A program made the position numbers and the translations under genes. Shown piece by piece: positions 1 to 15,539 of a DNA stretch of 63,743 nt. Below the pieces are notes generated by a model. The model worked only from the letters and a program-made list of their open reading frames with translations. It ran no database searches and was not told the DNA's origin. Position 1 is the stretch's first letter; each line of letters starts with the position of its first letter. The stretch is from Gardnerella vaginalis (GTDB lineage: Bacteria; Actinomycetota; Actinomycetes; Actinomycetales; Bifidobacteriaceae): contig NZ_KQ956867.1 of NCBI RefSeq assembly GCF_001546485.1, positions 21,624 to 85,366 on the forward strand. Reading direction: 5' to 3'.

Positions 1-9
1 GGGGGGGGG
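1..9. repeat. Poly-G tract (G9) at window edge
   Basis: The window opens with nine consecutive G residues followed by T. The tract may extend beyond the edge. It lies in the open frame that continues into the partial gene ending at 550, where it encodes consecutive glycines. Homopolymeric G tracts inside genes are classical slipped-strand sites, so a length change of one or two bases would shift the frame of this gene. It could instead mark a contig end, because assemblies often break there. Confidence 0.6.
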
Positions 10-550
10 TGCTCACAGTTTAGCTTTACAAGCGGTGAAGAAGCGCGATAATCAACTTATTTTTGTTACATGTGCTGATGCTAATAATGTAATTCTTCAA
101 GAATCTAAGCTTACAGTGTCGTTGGCTGGTGGATTAAAGATTCAAGAGCAGCATAGCAATAAAACTGATAATACTGATCATAATAATACGCAAGATAATC
201 ATGATTCGTATTCTTCAAGCAGTGATAATAATAATCAAAATGCAAGCTCTGAAAATAACAGTTCTCATGTGTCAGATAAGTCTCATAATAACGGCTCAGC
301 TATAGATAAAGGAAACGAGACTCAATCTGCTCATAATAATGCAAACAATTCTAATAACAATTCAAATTCAAATATTCATGATGGTTCACATTCGTCTTCT
401 CAAGTAGCAAAACGGAAACATTTTGTTAGCGTATTGTCAGCTACAGGTGTGGGTATGACGTGCATTGTGTTAGTTGCGGCAATAGCGGCTTCTGTAGGAA
501 TGAGTATGCGATTGAACGTCAATGGTGTGCATGCTAAGAAGGAGAAGTGA
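2..550 (+). CDS. 3' end of an unrecognised membrane protein (5' end outside window)
   Basis: The frame is open from the first bases to the TGA at 548-550, so only the C-terminal part (about 180 residues) is present. The internal GTG at 35 has no convincing ribosome binding site and is unlikely to be the start. The visible protein has a short folded-looking N-terminal stretch. A roughly 90-residue Asn/Ser/His/Asp-rich low-complexity spacer follows. The end is a single hydrophobic segment (residues near VLSATGVGMTCIVLVAAIAA) with a basic tail ending KKEK. This is the layout of a protein tethered to the membrane by its C-terminus through a flexible linker. The next gene begins 4 bases after its stop and its Shine-Dalgarno lies inside this gene, so the two are probably co-translated. 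I do not recognise the family. The reading frame passes through the G tract at 1-9. Confidence 0.7.
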   Translation, partial: GGGAHSLALQAVKKRDNQLIFVTCADANNVILQESKLTVSLAGGLKIQEQHSNKTDNTDHNNTQDNHDSYSSSSDNNNQNASSENNSSHVSDKSHNNGSAIDKGNETQSAHNNANNSNNNSNSNIHDGSHSSSQVAKRKHFVSVLSATGVGMTCIVLVAAIAASVGMSMRLNVNGVHAKKEK

Positions 551-554
551 GAAG

Positions 555-3500
555 ATGAAACGCAATACAATTTTTTGCAATATCATGCGTATGATTCACA
601 ATACTGCTTTTGTTTATAAAGCATTTGTGAGTTTGATAACATTTTCTATGATTGTTTGTATCGCTCCAGCAAATATTGCTTATGCTAATGATGCAAATGC
701 TGACAGTGAAACGAATATTAATGTTGATGCCCGTGCCAGGGTTCCGTATCTTGAAGCATCGAATGAATCCAAAGATAGCAAGGATAATTCTATATCGACA
801 GACAGTAATGCAACGCTTGGTTTACCTGGCGCGCATGGATACAGTAGTGCACTGGTTCGCGTGAGTGTATTCAATGCGAATAATGATACAACTGTGTATG
901 TTGATGGTGCTCCTGCATTACAAGTAGCTGCAAAACACGATGCTTCACAAACAGTGTTAGCTCATGTTGCAGATGGTAAGCTTCATGTGTATGCTTCTCA
1001 AACAGTTCAGGCTCGTGTTGAAGTTGTTGCATTCTTACAATCAAAAACTGTTGCAGCAGCTAAGAATCAGAAGCCAGCTTATGTTCCTGGCGCAACTGTT
1101 TCTTTAGCGAAACCAGTAACTCGTATGGATACTAATCAGAAAGTATCCTGCACAAGTATGAGTTCATCTGCACATTGCAAAGTTGGATTACTTGGCTTAG
1201 GTAATATTCCTGGAGAGTATGTGCGAGCAGCATATGTGACTATGAAAGTTGCTATGAAAAATGCTGGAAATGTTAAGGTAGCTGGGCAAGAGATAGCTCT
1301 TCCACAAGGTGATTCTGTAGTTTCTACAATAGTTGTTCCAAGTTCTATAGATGGCTCAATTAGTGTTGAATCAGAAAATGCTGCTTCTGCTGAGTTGTAT
1401 GTACGCGGATGGGTTGCAGGAGCTATGCCAAGTATGGCTCATGCTAACGTAACTGGAAGTTTTGTGCCGTCAATTGCTAAGAATTGGGTTGAATCAACAA
1501 CAGAAAAAGATAAAACTTCTACTGTTGCTTTAGGTAAACAATCAAACGATAGTGCCTTTGAACTTGCCTTAGTTAGTGCTCATGCTTCTGGTAAACGTGC
1601 ATTTGTTGAGTATGGTAAACCTGTTCAAGGCAGATCTACTGGTGCAGTAGTTGACGCGAAAGAAGGAGCACTACCTCAGCTTGATTTCGTGGACACTGAC
1701 GCAACCAATGCGAAAGTATCTGCTCGAGGAAGTAACGTATCTTCTCAAGTTTTGATGCTCGGTAGCATTCTTGGCAGTAGGGTTCAAAACGATAAGGCTG
1801 AAACTGTTACTGTGAAATGGACTTCTCCTAAGGAAAATGCTTCTATTGATTTCTCTAAGGGTAAGAAGTTAACAATTTCTGGTACTGTTGACGCAGCTTC
1901 GTCAGTTGACTATGTGAATGTAACTGTTCATTCTTCTGATAATAAGACAGTTGATTTAGGTAATGCTGCTGTTTCTTACGATGCTCATGGCAAAGCAATA
2001 TGGAGTATGGAGATTACCATACCGGTTGCTGGTAAGAATGCTATACACGTTAAAGCTGTATCTCGTACCAACAATAGTTTCGGTACTGCTCAGCGTGACG
2101 TGAATACTCAACTGCCGGATGCTAAGAAAACTATTATTAGTGACAAAGCTAAAGTTGTGATGCCTGACGAGTTGAGCAATGATATTACTGCTGTTAATCC
2201 TGATTCATTAGTGTTTAACAAGAAGCCTCAATACAAGGCTGGTGATATTTTAGCTTCCACTCCTGGAAAGAATGCTCCGAGGGGCTTCTTACGTAAGGTT
2301 GTTGGTGTAACACAGCAAGGTAATACTTGGGTTGTTGTTACTGAACCTGCAATGCTCACAGATGCTATTTATCAAGCGGATATTAGCGAAGATAGACCAT
2401 TTTCTACTGCAAGGCAACTCACAGTTGATGATAGTAGCGCTCATATCGACAGTAACTATACTGAGCTGGTAAAAAAACCTGGCTCGATGATCTCTGTTAG
2501 CGATTCCACTAAACCAAGTAATCGTGATATTGATGTGGACAAGAATCCACTTGATAAAACCATTTCTGCTTCATGCTATGCTGGTTGGCAACACAAAGAT
2601 GAAAAAACTCAATCAAAGGCTACTTGTAGCCAAAATGATGAGGAAGTGAAGAAAGCCATTATTGAAGCAGACATGGAAGCTAAACAGTCTGCTGGCGCTT
2701 CAGTGTTTGCTAAATATTCAGCTTCTTTTGGTTTGCATTTTGAATTGCATGTTCGTTTCTTGGGAAGAGTAGAAAAATTTGAAACCTACCTGTATTTCAA
2801 ATCAAATACAAACGTTGATGCAAAAGCATGGGGTGCTATAAATAGGTCATTTAATAATGAGCTAGGTAAGTTAAATTCTGATTTTGTGATTACAGTAGGT
2901 TTTATTCCTATTACTGTAAATGTCGAAACAAAGTTAGGAATTAAAGGTAATTTCAATGCTAAAGTTAATGCCAGTACTAATCCACACTGGTCGCAGGATA
3001 TAAAGTTAGGCGTTAGCTACGAGAATAACTCTTGGAATCTGATTAATGAATCAAATAATAAATTAGATAATGCTGCTAAACAAGCCTGTGGCAATAGTAT
3101 CAAAGCAAATGGTTCTTTAGATACTGGAGTTGGCTTGTGGGTTAAACCGACATTGTACATCTTTGATTCTGCAGGCGTTGGTCTGGATGGATCAATTGAT
3201 GCCATTTTGCATGGCGAATTTAAGACTAATGATTCAGGGGATGCGCATGCTGCTCAAGCGTGGATGAAACTATCCCTTAAGCCTGTCGTAGCTGCAAGTG
3301 TGCATTTGCGTATCACTCGTTATGGTCCAAATTTGCTTTCTAAAGAATTAGCTAGTTGGACGCATGAATATGAGTTATTCAACAATAAGGATAATCCGTG
3401 GACGATTGGTAATTGCTCTGCCGATACTGCATCTCAATCACAAAATGAGATTAGCGATGCAGTTCTTGCTCAAGCTGGTCGCGCTTATAAAGACGTGCTA

Positions 3501-4367
3501 GCTAATCTCAACGGCAAGTATAAATTCGGTGATGCAGATAAGTATTACTACTCTCTTTGGGATATTAATAATGATAAAATACCTGATTTAATTGTTACTG
3601 CTACAAAATCTGAAAAATCTATAGAGTCAAGTGATGGATATATTGAAGGTTACAGTCCAACATCAGCTCGAGTATTTTCATATGATGGGAAAAAATTAGT
3701 TACGCCTTCAACAATACTTAGTTATGGTTTTGCAACCATGATGTTTGACAAAAATCACAATGGTATTGTTTTCCTCGAAAATAAAGTACCAGATGGTGGT
3801 TATTCTGAGATCCATAACTGGTTGGAAGATCCTCATTTCCCATGGGGAAAAACAATATATAAACTGCAAAATAATGATTTTGTTAAAAAAACTTATCTTG
3901 TTGAATATCCTATCGACACAAATCTAACCAAGGGTAGTAATGAGTTAGGTAAAGTAACTGCACCAAATTATTTGGAATCTGATGATCTTAGTGAAATTAA
4001 TAAGTTAATTAATATAACTAAGTTAACTTCTAAAGAACGTCAGCATGAAGCAGAAGTGCTGAAATGGCGAGAAAAGGGTTATCAAGTCTTCTCTGGAAGA
4101 ATGTCTGATCGTAGTACATTTATGTTTGACAAACGCCTGCTCATTGTTACTAATTTTCATGGAACTGAATCTGGTTTTTCAGCTCCAGGAACTAGATTGA
4201 CAAAAGGTCTGATCTTCTACAAAGATTATGTTGATAGGTATCTTTCAACTTATGTAAAAACTGGAAATAGATTTACTATAGCAATTAACGATTCCAGATA
4301 CTGTTCTTGGGATGAAGATCTTGCTGAAACTCCAGCAGTTGATGATGAACTGCATATCGTTCCATGA
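555..4367 (+). CDS. Large secreted multidomain surface protein (1270 aa)
   Basis: The ATG at 555 is chosen over an in-frame start at 522 because AAGGAG at 539-544 sits 10 bases before it. The N-terminus has a long basic region, a hydrophobic core and an AYA/ND-type signal peptidase site near residue 44. Residues ~90-160 and ~200-300 look like two copies of one beta-sandwich type: VxVxNA start, DGxIxVxS middle, ending in a VRGWVAG- or VEVVAFL-like strand. Residues ~420-520 resemble a bacterial Ig-like domain. Residues ~650-950 form a large beta-rich region. Near residue ~1020 a WDINNDKIPDLIV motif resembles the DxNxDxxPDL calcium loop of FG-GAP/VCBS-type repeats. There is no C-terminal LPxTG, no cell-wall repeat and no terminal membrane helix, so the protein is either released or held by its partner. 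The tight link to the upstream membrane protein suggests a secreted/anchored pair. I cannot name a family for the whole. Confidence 0.8.
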   Translation: MKRNTIFCNIMRMIHNTAFVYKAFVSLITFSMIVCIAPANIAYANDANADSETNINVDARARVPYLEASNESKDSKDNSISTDSNATLGLPGAHGYSSALVRVSVFNANNDTTVYVDGAPALQVAAKHDASQTVLAHVADGKLHVYASQTVQARVEVVAFLQSKTVAAAKNQKPAYVPGATVSLAKPVTRMDTNQKVSCTSMSSSAHCKVGLLGLGNIPGEYVRAAYVTMKVAMKNAGNVKVAGQEIALPQGDSVVSTIVVPSSIDGSISVESENAASAELYVRGWVAGAMPSMAHANVTGSFVPSIAKNWVESTTEKDKTSTVALGKQSNDSAFELALVSAHASGKRAFVEYGKPVQGRSTGAVVDAKEGALPQLDFVDTDATNAKVSARGSNVSSQVLMLGSILGSRVQNDKAETVTVKWTSPKENASIDFSKGKKLTISGTVDAASSVDYVNVTVHSSDNKTVDLGNAAVSYDAHGKAIWSMEITIPVAGKNAIHVKAVSRTNNSFGTAQRDVNTQLPDAKKTIISDKAKVVMPDELSNDITAVNPDSLVFNKKPQYKAGDILASTPGKNAPRGFLRKVVGVTQQGNTWVVVTEPAMLTDAIYQADISEDRPFSTARQLTVDDSSAHIDSNYTELVKKPGSMISVSDSTKPSNRDIDVDKNPLDKTISASCYAGWQHKDEKTQSKATCSQNDEEVKKAIIEADMEAKQSAGASVFAKYSASFGLHFELHVRFLGRVEKFETYLYFKSNTNVDAKAWGAINRSFNNELGKLNSDFVITVGFIPITVNVETKLGIKGNFNAKVNASTNPHWSQDIKLGVSYENNSWNLINESNNKLDNAAKQACGNSIKANGSLDTGVGLWVKPTLYIFDSAGVGLDGSIDAILHGEFKTNDSGDAHAAQAWMKLSLKPVVAASVHLRITRYGPNLLSKELASWTHEYELFNNKDNPWTIGNCSADTASQSQNEISDAVLAQAGRAYKDVLANLNGKYKFGDADKYYYSLWDINNDKIPDLIVTATKSEKSIESSDGYIEGYSPTSARVFSYDGKKLVTPSTILSYGFATMMFDKNHNGIVFLENKVPDGGYSEIHNWLEDPHFPWGKTIYKLQNNDFVKKTYLVEYPIDTNLTKGSNELGKVTAPNYLESDDLSEINKLINITKLTSKERQHEAEVLKWREKGYQVFSGRMSDRSTFMFDKRLLIVTNFHGTESGFSAPGTRLTKGLIFYKDYVDRYLSTYVKTGNRFTIAINDSRYCSWDEDLAETPAVDDELHIVP

Positions 4368-13675: not shown

Positions 13676-15277
13676 TTATTCTTCAGCAACCAAGTCAAGA
13701 TACTCATCATTCCACAAGTCTTCATCACCATCAGGCATGAGTAGTACGCGCTCAGGCTGCAATGCTTCAACAGCACCCTCATCGTGAGTAACAAGCACAA
13801 TTGCGCCCTCATATTTTGCAATAGCTTTAAGAATCTCATCGCGAGATGCCGGATCTAAGTTGTTTGTAGGCTCATCGAGAAGCAGTACGTTAGCTTGTGA
13901 TGTAACAAGTGTTGCGAGCGCAAGACGAGTTTTTTCGCCGCCGGAAAGTACTCGTGCAGGCTTCATGGCGTCATCACCTGAAAATAGGAAGCTTCCAAGC
14001 ATAGATCGTGCTTGAGTGTCATTTAAGTTTGGTGCAACATGCTGCAGATTTTCGAGTACCGTAGCGTCTAAGTCTAAAGTGTCGTGTTCCTGTGCAAAGT
14101 AGCCAATTTTGCAGCCGTGCCCATACTGCACTTCGCCAGTATCGGCTGTTTCTTCACCTGCTAAGATGCGTAAAGTTGTGGTTTTTCCGGCACCGTTATA
14201 TCCCAAAATAACAACTCTGGAACCCTTGTCTATTGCAAGATTAATACCTGCAAAAACAATGTTAGAACCGTATGCTTTAGAAATATCTTTAGCCATAATT
14301 GGTGTGCGACCACATGGTGCTGGTTCTGGGAAGCGAATGTCGGCAACTTTTTCTTGTTTTTGAGCTTCGCTTGTTTCGCTCAGCAAACGTTCGGCTCTGC
14401 GCATCATGTTTTGTGCAGCAACAGCTTTTGTGGCTTTTGCGTGCAAGCGAATGCCTTGTTTCATAAGGCGTTCTGCTTTCTTTTCTGCAACTTCTCGTTC
14501 GCGGCGGCGGCGTTCCTCATCTACTACGCGTTGATGTAAGTATGCTTTCCAGCCCATTGAATACATGTCTATTTGTGCGAGTTGAGCATCTAAATGCCAA
14601 ACCTTGTTTACTACTTCGTCAAGCAGTTCCGTTGAGTGGGAGATAACAAGGAATCCGCCTTCAAAGCGTTTCAGATAGTTGCGTAACCAAATAATCGAGT
14701 CTGCGTCCAAATGGTTCGTAGGTTCGTCGAGAATTAATGTGTCCGCGTCTGAAAACAGGATGCGTGCAAGCTCAATGCGTCTGCGTTGTCCGCCGGAAAG
14801 AGTGCCAAGAGCTTGTTGCATCACTTCTTGCGGTAATCCTAAGCTTGTTGCCATTGAGATTGCTTCGGATTGCACTGCGTAGCCGCCTGCTTTTTCAAAA
14901 TCTTGCATAGCTTTGTCATAGCGGTTCATGGCTTTAGTCATCACGTCCGGATCGGGATCGGTCATCTCTTTTTCTGCTTTACGTATACGCGAAACAATAG
15001 AAGCAATGTCGCGAGCGCTCATAATGCGGTCGATGACGCTTTGTTCAGGGTCTGCTGCGTGAGTATCTTGTGGCAAATACCCCAAGCCACCACTTACTCT
15101 CACGGATCCGCCTGCTGGAAGCATATCTCCAGTAATAACGCGAGTAAGTGTCGTTTTGCCTGCGCCGTTTCTACCGACTAAACCGATTTTGTCTCCCTTT
15201 GTAACATGAAAATCGGTAGGGTTTAACAGCGTGCGCGCACCAATTTGAATGGTTAATGCTTGTGCGTCAATAGGCAT
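13676..15277 (-). CDS. ABC-F family ATPase (ribosome-associated type)
   Basis: The 533-residue soluble protein has two ABC domains and no membrane helix. Walker A motifs are GRNGAGKT (~35) and GYNGAGKT (~360), signatures LSGGQRRR and LSGGEKTR, Walker B LILDEPTNHLD and LLLDEPTNNLD. Between them is a highly charged linker (VVDEERRRREREVAEKKAERLMKQG written in part), matching the P-site tRNA interaction motif of ABC-F factors. ABC-F proteins act on the ribosome in translation or antibiotic protection, but this sequence alone does not assign it to EttA, Uup or resistance branches. It is divergent from uvrA. Confidence 0.9.
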   Translation of the reverse strand: MPIDAQALTIQIGARTLLNPTDFHVTKGDKIGLVGRNGAGKTTLTRVITGDMLPAGGSVRVSGGLGYLPQDTHAADPEQSVIDRIMSARDIASIVSRIRKAEKEMTDPDPDVMTKAMNRYDKAMQDFEKAGGYAVQSEAISMATSLGLPQEVMQQALGTLSGGQRRRIELARILFSDADTLILDEPTNHLDADSIIWLRNYLKRFEGGFLVISHSTELLDEVVNKVWHLDAQLAQIDMYSMGWKAYLHQRVVDEERRRREREVAEKKAERLMKQGIRLHAKATKAVAAQNMMRRAERLLSETSEAQKQEKVADIRFPEPAPCGRTPIMAKDISKAYGSNIVFAGINLAIDKGSRVVILGYNGAGKTTTLRILAGEETADTGEVQYGHGCKIGYFAQEHDTLDLDATVLENLQHVAPNLNDTQARSMLGSFLFSGDDAMKPARVLSGGEKTRLALATLVTSQANVLLLDEPTNNLDPASRDEILKAIAKYEGAIVLVTHDEGAVEALQPERVLLMPDGDEDLWNDEYLDLVAEE

Positions 15278-15539
15278 AATGTATGTTCCGTTCCCCCGAA
15301 AAAGTAGGCTTCTTATCTATATGTACTAAGTAAAGTATTAGCCAAACTCACTATTATACCGTGTAGTAGTCACGAACGTTTATATGCGTAATCTTTCTGA
15401 GTTTTGTGTACTCGTATTCGTAAAGAGTATGCTGAAGCAAACTTTACTTTTTGAACGCTTGTTCTATGATTGCTATTTATCGAGTACGTGCATATTGGTT
15501 GGGAATATGCGGATGATTATGAGTGAGTGCGGAGGTTTT

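Follow-up and report, generated by a model that had tools for sequence, protein, structure and literature searches.

A candidate two-part surface display system in Gardnerella: a predicted wall-sorted tether encoded next to a giant secreted protein

Analysis of a 63,743-nucleotide stretch of the Gardnerella vaginalis genome (referred to as the window; positions 21624-85366 of contig C42 in the 1.6 Mb source genome, G000; G+C content of the window 42%) points to a two-part display system, in which a sortase-anchored and probably phase-variable tether would hold a secreted scaffold protein with an exchangeable tip. We assign this reading a probability of roughly 0.6. The anatomy of the two sequences is firmly supported, and wall attachment, the contact between tether and scaffold, the effect of the switch and the ligand of the tip are inferred. 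Gardnerella is placed within Bifidobacterium by GTDB. The source genome encodes a thiol-activated cytolysin (PF01289, E 6.6e-136), a gene present in 5 of the 7 small genomes of the genus that were tested, and the gene pair described below is present in only 2 of these 5 cytolysin-positive genomes.

Layout of the gene pair and its predicted products

As the sequence-only reading had described, an ORF of 1270 codons occupies positions 555-4364 of the window (stop codon to 4367), and its ATG lies 4 bases past the stop codon (548-550) of the upstream ORF. The start of that upstream ORF had been put at position 35, which is ruled out: its frame is open to base 1 of the window and runs through a poly-G tract and a 100-N scaffold gap to an ATG further upstream, 296 bases before the gap (L005:16228, outside the window) and behind AAGGGGAG. 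The 171-residue gene of the earlier reading is therefore only the 3′ part of a longer gene, referred to here as the tether gene. The features of the pair are given below in window coordinates.

1..9, + strand: nine G's that form the right side of the tether gene's poly-G tract (nine more stand left of the 100-N gap, outside the window)
1..550, + strand: 3′ part of the tether gene (the remainder, with the signal peptide, is at L005:16228-16523, upstream of the window)
140..397, + strand: Asn/Ser-rich spacer of the tether (seen directly)
434..448, + strand: LSATG, predicted class E sortase recognition motif (motif class from the extracts of PMC8603203)
449..547, + strand: remainder of the sorting signal, a hydrophobic helix and a basic tail (from hydropathy and the C-terminal tether rows)
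539..544, + strand: AAGGAG, likely ribosome binding site from which the giant gene would be translated, situated within the 3′ end of the tether gene
555..4367, + strand: giant secreted scaffold protein, 1270 aa (ORF; codons 555-4364, stop to 4367)
555..719, + strand: N-terminal secretion signal region, aa 1-55 (from hydropathy; end set by eye)
717..1739, + strand: head region, aa 55-395, two related beta domains (high score almost solely in proteins with a tether)
1797..2120, + strand: Ig-like domain, aa 415-522 (Pfam in relatives, profile match)
2172..2399, + strand: conserved APxGFLRxV domain, aa 540-615 (alignment)
2652..3419, + strand: strand-rich region, aa 700-955 (modelled as long antiparallel strands, with very low confidence)
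3453..4364, + strand: exchangeable C-terminal (tip) domain (three more copies in the source genome, behind a hydrophobic segment)
3561..3587, + strand: possible calcium loop, DINNDKIPD (seen directly; without Pfam support)

The N-terminus of the tether is hydrophobic and ends in CYAADSS (L005:16228), which reads as a signal peptide both by eye and by hydropathy. Comparable signal-peptide-like N-termini are found in the 10 full-length tether homologues of our alignment (A4, which includes one of the two G170 tethers). Homologues were found in genomes G009, G057, G047, G018 (Bifidobacterium avesanii), G110 (B. subtile), G108, G173 and G170 and, outside the family, in G305 and G280, and they are built in one order: the signal peptide is followed by a domain with the motif W-V/F-D (VWVDVE in most), then by a low-complexity spacer that varies, and finally by the residues TG, a helix and a basic tail. 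The Asn/Ser-rich stretch and the C-terminal hydrophobic helix that had been remarked upon in the upstream ORF are both directly visible in the window.

All 12 C-terminal tether rows show [LIVM][AGSY]xTG followed by a hydrophobic helix and basic residues, the motifs being LSATG (window), LYVTG (G009), IAQTG (twice), LGRTG, LGLTG, VGKTG, LSSTG, LADTG, LAGTG, LGTTG and MGKTG (in the truncated tether of G048, B. minimum). The strict pattern [LIV][SAP]xTG is followed by only 6 of the 12, with Gly at the second place in five and LYVTG in G009. Extracts of a study on B. bifidum propose [L/I/V][S/A/P]XTG as the motif in substrates of its class E housekeeping sortase (PMC8603203), and LAXTG is given as the motif of Streptomyces SrtE1 in the extracted text of PMC5148588. 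The source genome contains four sortase genes, one of them of class E (NF033747, E 1e-75). Because of this class E sortase and the pattern of TG, helix and basic tail, the tether helix is most simply, and most likely, explained as part of a sortase sorting signal, and the tether is predicted to be anchored to the wall rather than simply held in the membrane. The earlier picture of a membrane tether with an exported partner is thus kept as regards the pairing and the non-housekeeping nature of the upstream gene, and revised as regards the membrane; it had also left out the poly-G tract that probably switches the tether.

None of the tethers scanned against Pfam and NCBIfam gave a match over the cut-off, so that the upstream gene is not a housekeeping enzyme, an outcome that would have counted against the proposed pairing; within the window, neither protein of the pair matched these databases over the cut-off. 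A profile search of the tether ectodomain against solved structures returned no match up to E 1, and comparison with the scaffold domains gave no support for a kinship between them. A match on contig C59, considered as the missing piece of the tether, is actually the tail of another wall protein with LTNTG. Structure models of a tether and of the scaffold (mean pLDDT 47 and 37, respectively) were both too uncertain to serve as evidence, and fold searches with these models found no match at E 0.001 or better.

Hydropathy scanning of all 1270 residues of the giant protein revealed a sole hydrophobic segment, at the N-terminus (19-residue windows starting at aa 17-26). Hydropathy in the last 100 residues peaks at 0.37, so that a terminal helix is absent, and the single xxTG in this part (VKTG, aa 1234-1237) is followed by no helix. 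The protein is therefore, as had been claimed, without a sortase signal or terminal helix of its own, the signal sitting in its partner. That it is also without a recognised cell-wall repeat agrees with our Pfam search, since the best match was only Big_7 at E 0.28. The duplicated beta domain that had been noticed in this protein obtained moderate support (hhalign of aa 93-165 versus aa 214-292, E 1e-4, probability 58%), and the Ig-like domain was supported by matches of PF17957 (E of 0.01 or lower) to 9 of 26 relatives and by a profile match to 9kvu (E 1.4e-4), the Ig match of the window protein itself being below the cut-off at E 0.28. For the proposed FG-GAP-like calcium loop, the motif DINNDKIPD is plainly visible, but only one of the 9 domain-family members matched Pfam FG-GAP, and that at E 0.12. 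A reading of the whole tip as a Pfam FG-GAP domain is likewise not supported by this value, and a profile search against solved structures gave only E 0.63.

Linkage of the pair and variation of the tip

Lack of linkage between the two genes in other genomes was the other outcome that would have refuted the proposed pairing, which survives this test. In a search of 189 family genomes with the tether profile, 10 gave a match at E 0.01; after one match was dropped (G103, E 0.0013, covering only the signal-peptide region at profile positions 6-43), 10 tether copies in 9 genomes remained, and 10 of 10 are located directly upstream of the giant gene. Conversely, 10 of the 12 head-bearing scaffold copies examined in the family have a whole tether (that of the source genome with the gap inside it), the other two being that of B. 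minimum (G048), where the tether is truncated, and that of G122, where no tether was detected. These family counts leave aside weak or partial matches in five genomes (G167, G118, G114, G159 and G160) as well as fragments of the head in G122 (contigs C7 and C96). In the B. minimum locus (L036:5599-5967), the tether gene is reduced to its C-terminal part and the scaffold gene is open; the gene beside it is one that we take to be transposase-like.

At the level of the genus, the full scaffold was found in 8 of 112 genomes, and a match to the C-terminal domain alone in 3 more. Some scaffold match occurred in 23 of the 396 genomes drawn from the order, including the source genome itself and one tip-only Gardnerella, and the Ig-like and strand-rich parts of the scaffold extend to other families of the order. 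This order-level set is without the matching genomes G261, G255, G279, G357 and G450 and without second places in G305, G379 and G267. The scaffold set used below comprises 29 ORFs from 28 selected loci; 26 of these ORFs entered the alignment behind the Pfam count above (A3, with 25 of its 36 families among the matches listed). When the tether profile was run against all 2786 ORFs of the 28 loci, it retrieved these tethers again and, in addition, the ones in G305 and G280, with nothing better than E 0.12 elsewhere and no tether at E 0.1 or better beside the 16 tether-less rows. With the first ATG taken as the start codon, stop and start codons overlap as ATGA in 8 of the 13 pairs (one of them, that of G048, with a truncated tether), and in the other 5 they are 2-5 nt apart.

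The C-terminal domain differs between relatives. Pfam recognised a CarboxypepD_reg tip in G057, G048, G110 and G108, an RCC1 tip in G018, G475, G389 and G267, a VWA tip in G173, G170, G419, G331 and G349 (and, below the cut-off, in G546), an LRR tip in G305 and G379, BACON in G318 and FG-GAP_2 in G244, and no domain in the C-termini of G363 and G485. By their tails, G047 is similar to G057, G214 to G349, and one G170 copy to G173. The Gardnerella tip gave no Pfam match over the cut-off and was, among the relatives studied here, found in Gardnerella only; in the source genome it recurs in three other genes, each time behind a hydrophobic segment. Just upstream of the window (around 17.9-20.3 kb of contig C42), a 161-nt inverted repeat (L005:12896-13056 and 15163-15323, 94% complementary) flanks two opposed genes whose products have near-identical hydrophobic N-termini and share the C-terminal domain of the giant protein, and the segment within it could be invertible.

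In the tree (26 of the 29 rows, without G419, G331 and G267), the RCC1-tipped B. avesanii protein is sister to the two Gardnerella proteins with support 100/100. The minimum number of changes is 11 for the tip and 2 for the tether, on a tree with a weak backbone (76/82), long branches for G122 and G280, and many rows that fail the composition check. For RCC1, VWA and LRR tips alike, some rows have a tether and others lack one, and tethers co-occur with five kinds of tip (RCC1, VWA, LRR, CarboxypepD_reg and that of Gardnerella). It is therefore likely that the tether, if it binds the giant protein at all, does so via a constant part.

A candidate for this constant part is the head region, which scored 1.6-2.0 times as high as the Ig region in 13 of 13 rows with a tether gene (truncated in G048), 7 of these being outside the training of the profile. 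The same ratio was between –0.2 and 0.95 in 15 of the 16 tether-less rows, G122 being the exception. The association does not represent independent events, as the tether rows are essentially one clade (2 label changes) on a tree with a weak backbone and long branches, and since the rows share descent and the profile was trained on tether rows, we treat the tracking of head and tether as a lead rather than as proof.

The poly-G tract in the tether gene

The tract in the tether gene of the source genome consists of 9 G's, the 100-N scaffold gap and 9 further G's, so its length is known only as G9 or more. At the homologous codon, the tether gene of G009, the other Gardnerella orthologue, has a G10 tract (ATG GGG GGG GGG), so that the two species share the position of the tract. 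The five other pairs of the genus that were scanned contain no run of 7 or more G or C. GGG accounts for 41 of the 654 Gly codons in 15 ORFs of the window. The tether frame of the source genome stays open at tract lengths divisible by 3 and at other lengths meets a stop after 13 or 3 codons, and in G009 the out-of-frame lengths lead to a stop after 1 or 3 codons. The tether ORF hence carries a homopolymer of at least 8 bases in which a change of length breaks the frame, as looked for in genes subject to slipped-strand mispairing.

Across the whole source genome, G or C runs of at least 9 occur in 12 places (the two sides of a gap counted once), versus about 2 expected from base composition. 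At 7 of these 12 places (on C28, C32, C42 twice, C48, C52 and C53), a 100-N gap is flanked on both sides by such runs, with 3 other bases between run and gap on one side of the C53 gap. These seven gaps indicate that the assembler tends to break at such tracts; the breaks may in turn mark tracts that slip, and the break at the tether tract is only suggestive in this respect. In other Gardnerella strains, a homopolymer tract tied to the gene of a predicted GA-module (surface) protein varies between colonies: in one strain, 9 colonies had length 9 and a single one had length 10, and in another the numbers were 7 and 2 (extracted text of PMC11287997). Taken by its sequence, the tether is probably phase-variable via its poly-G tract.

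Proposed mechanism and relation to known systems

In the display system that we favour, the class E sortase would link the exported tether to the wall. The giant protein, also exported but with no anchor of its own, would be held at the surface by the tether, probably via the N-terminal head, so that the remaining scaffold could present its exchangeable C-terminal domain, probably as a ligand-binding tip. Gain or loss of bases in the poly-G tract during replication would then turn tether production on or off. Since it is the tether gene that contains the tract, and a separate likely ribosome binding site (AAGGAG) stands ten bases 5′ of the ATG of the giant gene, the off state would leave the giant protein unanchored, reduced, or both; coupling may be weak, and the protein may still be made and then shed. 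A tentative extension, which we hold possible but doubtful, is that slippage toggles the scaffold between wall-displayed and freely shed while recombination swaps the tip, giving two independent layers of surface variation at one locus.

The two genes might also encode independent surface proteins that share an operon, one a wall protein and the other shed or non-specifically held, with no binding between them. We regard this as unlikely: it fits with the 16 of 29 scaffold rows that have no tether beside them, but no tether that lacks the giant gene was detected in the 189 family genomes, although each protein could work alone, and the pair persists across differing tips while the head region tracks the tether. 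A helper role, in which a membrane-held upstream protein would assist export or folding of the giant protein instead of anchoring it, is harder still to reconcile with the data. The strict pairing would follow from it, and a signal peptide with a terminal helix suits a membrane protein too, yet the TG before the helix in all 12 rows and the low-complexity spacer are as in wall proteins, which makes such a helper very improbable.

Phase variation of the Streptococcus gallolyticus Pil1 pilus reportedly involves repeats in a leader. The attenuation-like character of the phase variation in this operon (extracts of PMC3894217), together with the stop/start overlap in 8 of 13 pairs, might suggest that the tract-bearing upstream gene is mainly a phase-variable leader, whose coupling or polarity sets downstream expression and for which anchoring is secondary. 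Against this, the upstream gene encodes a full, conserved protein with export and sorting signals even in species free of the tract, and a separate ribosome binding site is likely for the giant gene, so that we consider a leader function improbable as the main role. Wall display of the scaffold by the tether accordingly remains our preferred reading.

Each ingredient of such a display system is of a known kind, and searches of the open-licence PMC papers, including searches on Gardnerella and on class E sortases, yielded no system of the same layout, as judged by titles and the openings of abstracts. If the reading is true, sortase biology gains a modular arrangement: a scaffold made as a separate protein, with a tip that varies from species to species, is put on display by a short anchored one. 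Variable surface behaviour in bacterial vaginosis would likewise gain, in this pair, a candidate that can be tested. The analysis also supplies an anatomy for two proteins without a Pfam or NCBIfam match over the cut-off.

Among scaffold relatives from other families of the order, those of G349, G214 and G331 share the Ig-like and strand-rich core and have VWA tips, but differ in having a hydrophobic segment near their own C-terminus and a different upstream gene (the G331 sequence reaches the contig end). At four loci (L117, L118, L116 and L110), scaffold relatives are preceded by a gene with a hydrophobic segment and with repeats that are presumably PASTA-like, and three of the four relatives have a hydrophobic segment near their own C-terminus, that of L110 being cut by the contig end.

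As far as the extracts of PMC8603203 describe them, the sortase-dependent proteins of class E in B. bifidum resemble the tether in their signal peptide, [L/I/V][S/A/P]XTG motif, helix, basic tail and class E sortase. Most described sortase-dependent proteins in that text are glycoside hydrolases, in which the anchored chain itself carries the enzyme, whereas here a short anchor is combined with a separate secreted partner. The multi-domain scaffold, with a terminal domain that varies among relatives, is reminiscent of fibrillar adhesins with their stalk and adhesive tip (extracts of PMC9210967), but it is without an anchor of its own. Finally, the tether gene is like the homopolymer-tract genes of Gardnerella in the extracted text of PMC11287997 in that the ORF for a protein of surface type contains a homopolymer of at least 9, and unlike them in that the tract lies in the predicted anchor of a two-gene pair. 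Slippage there may thus switch attachment, and Gardnerella could, if the reading is true, switch the attachment of a surface protein rather than its production.
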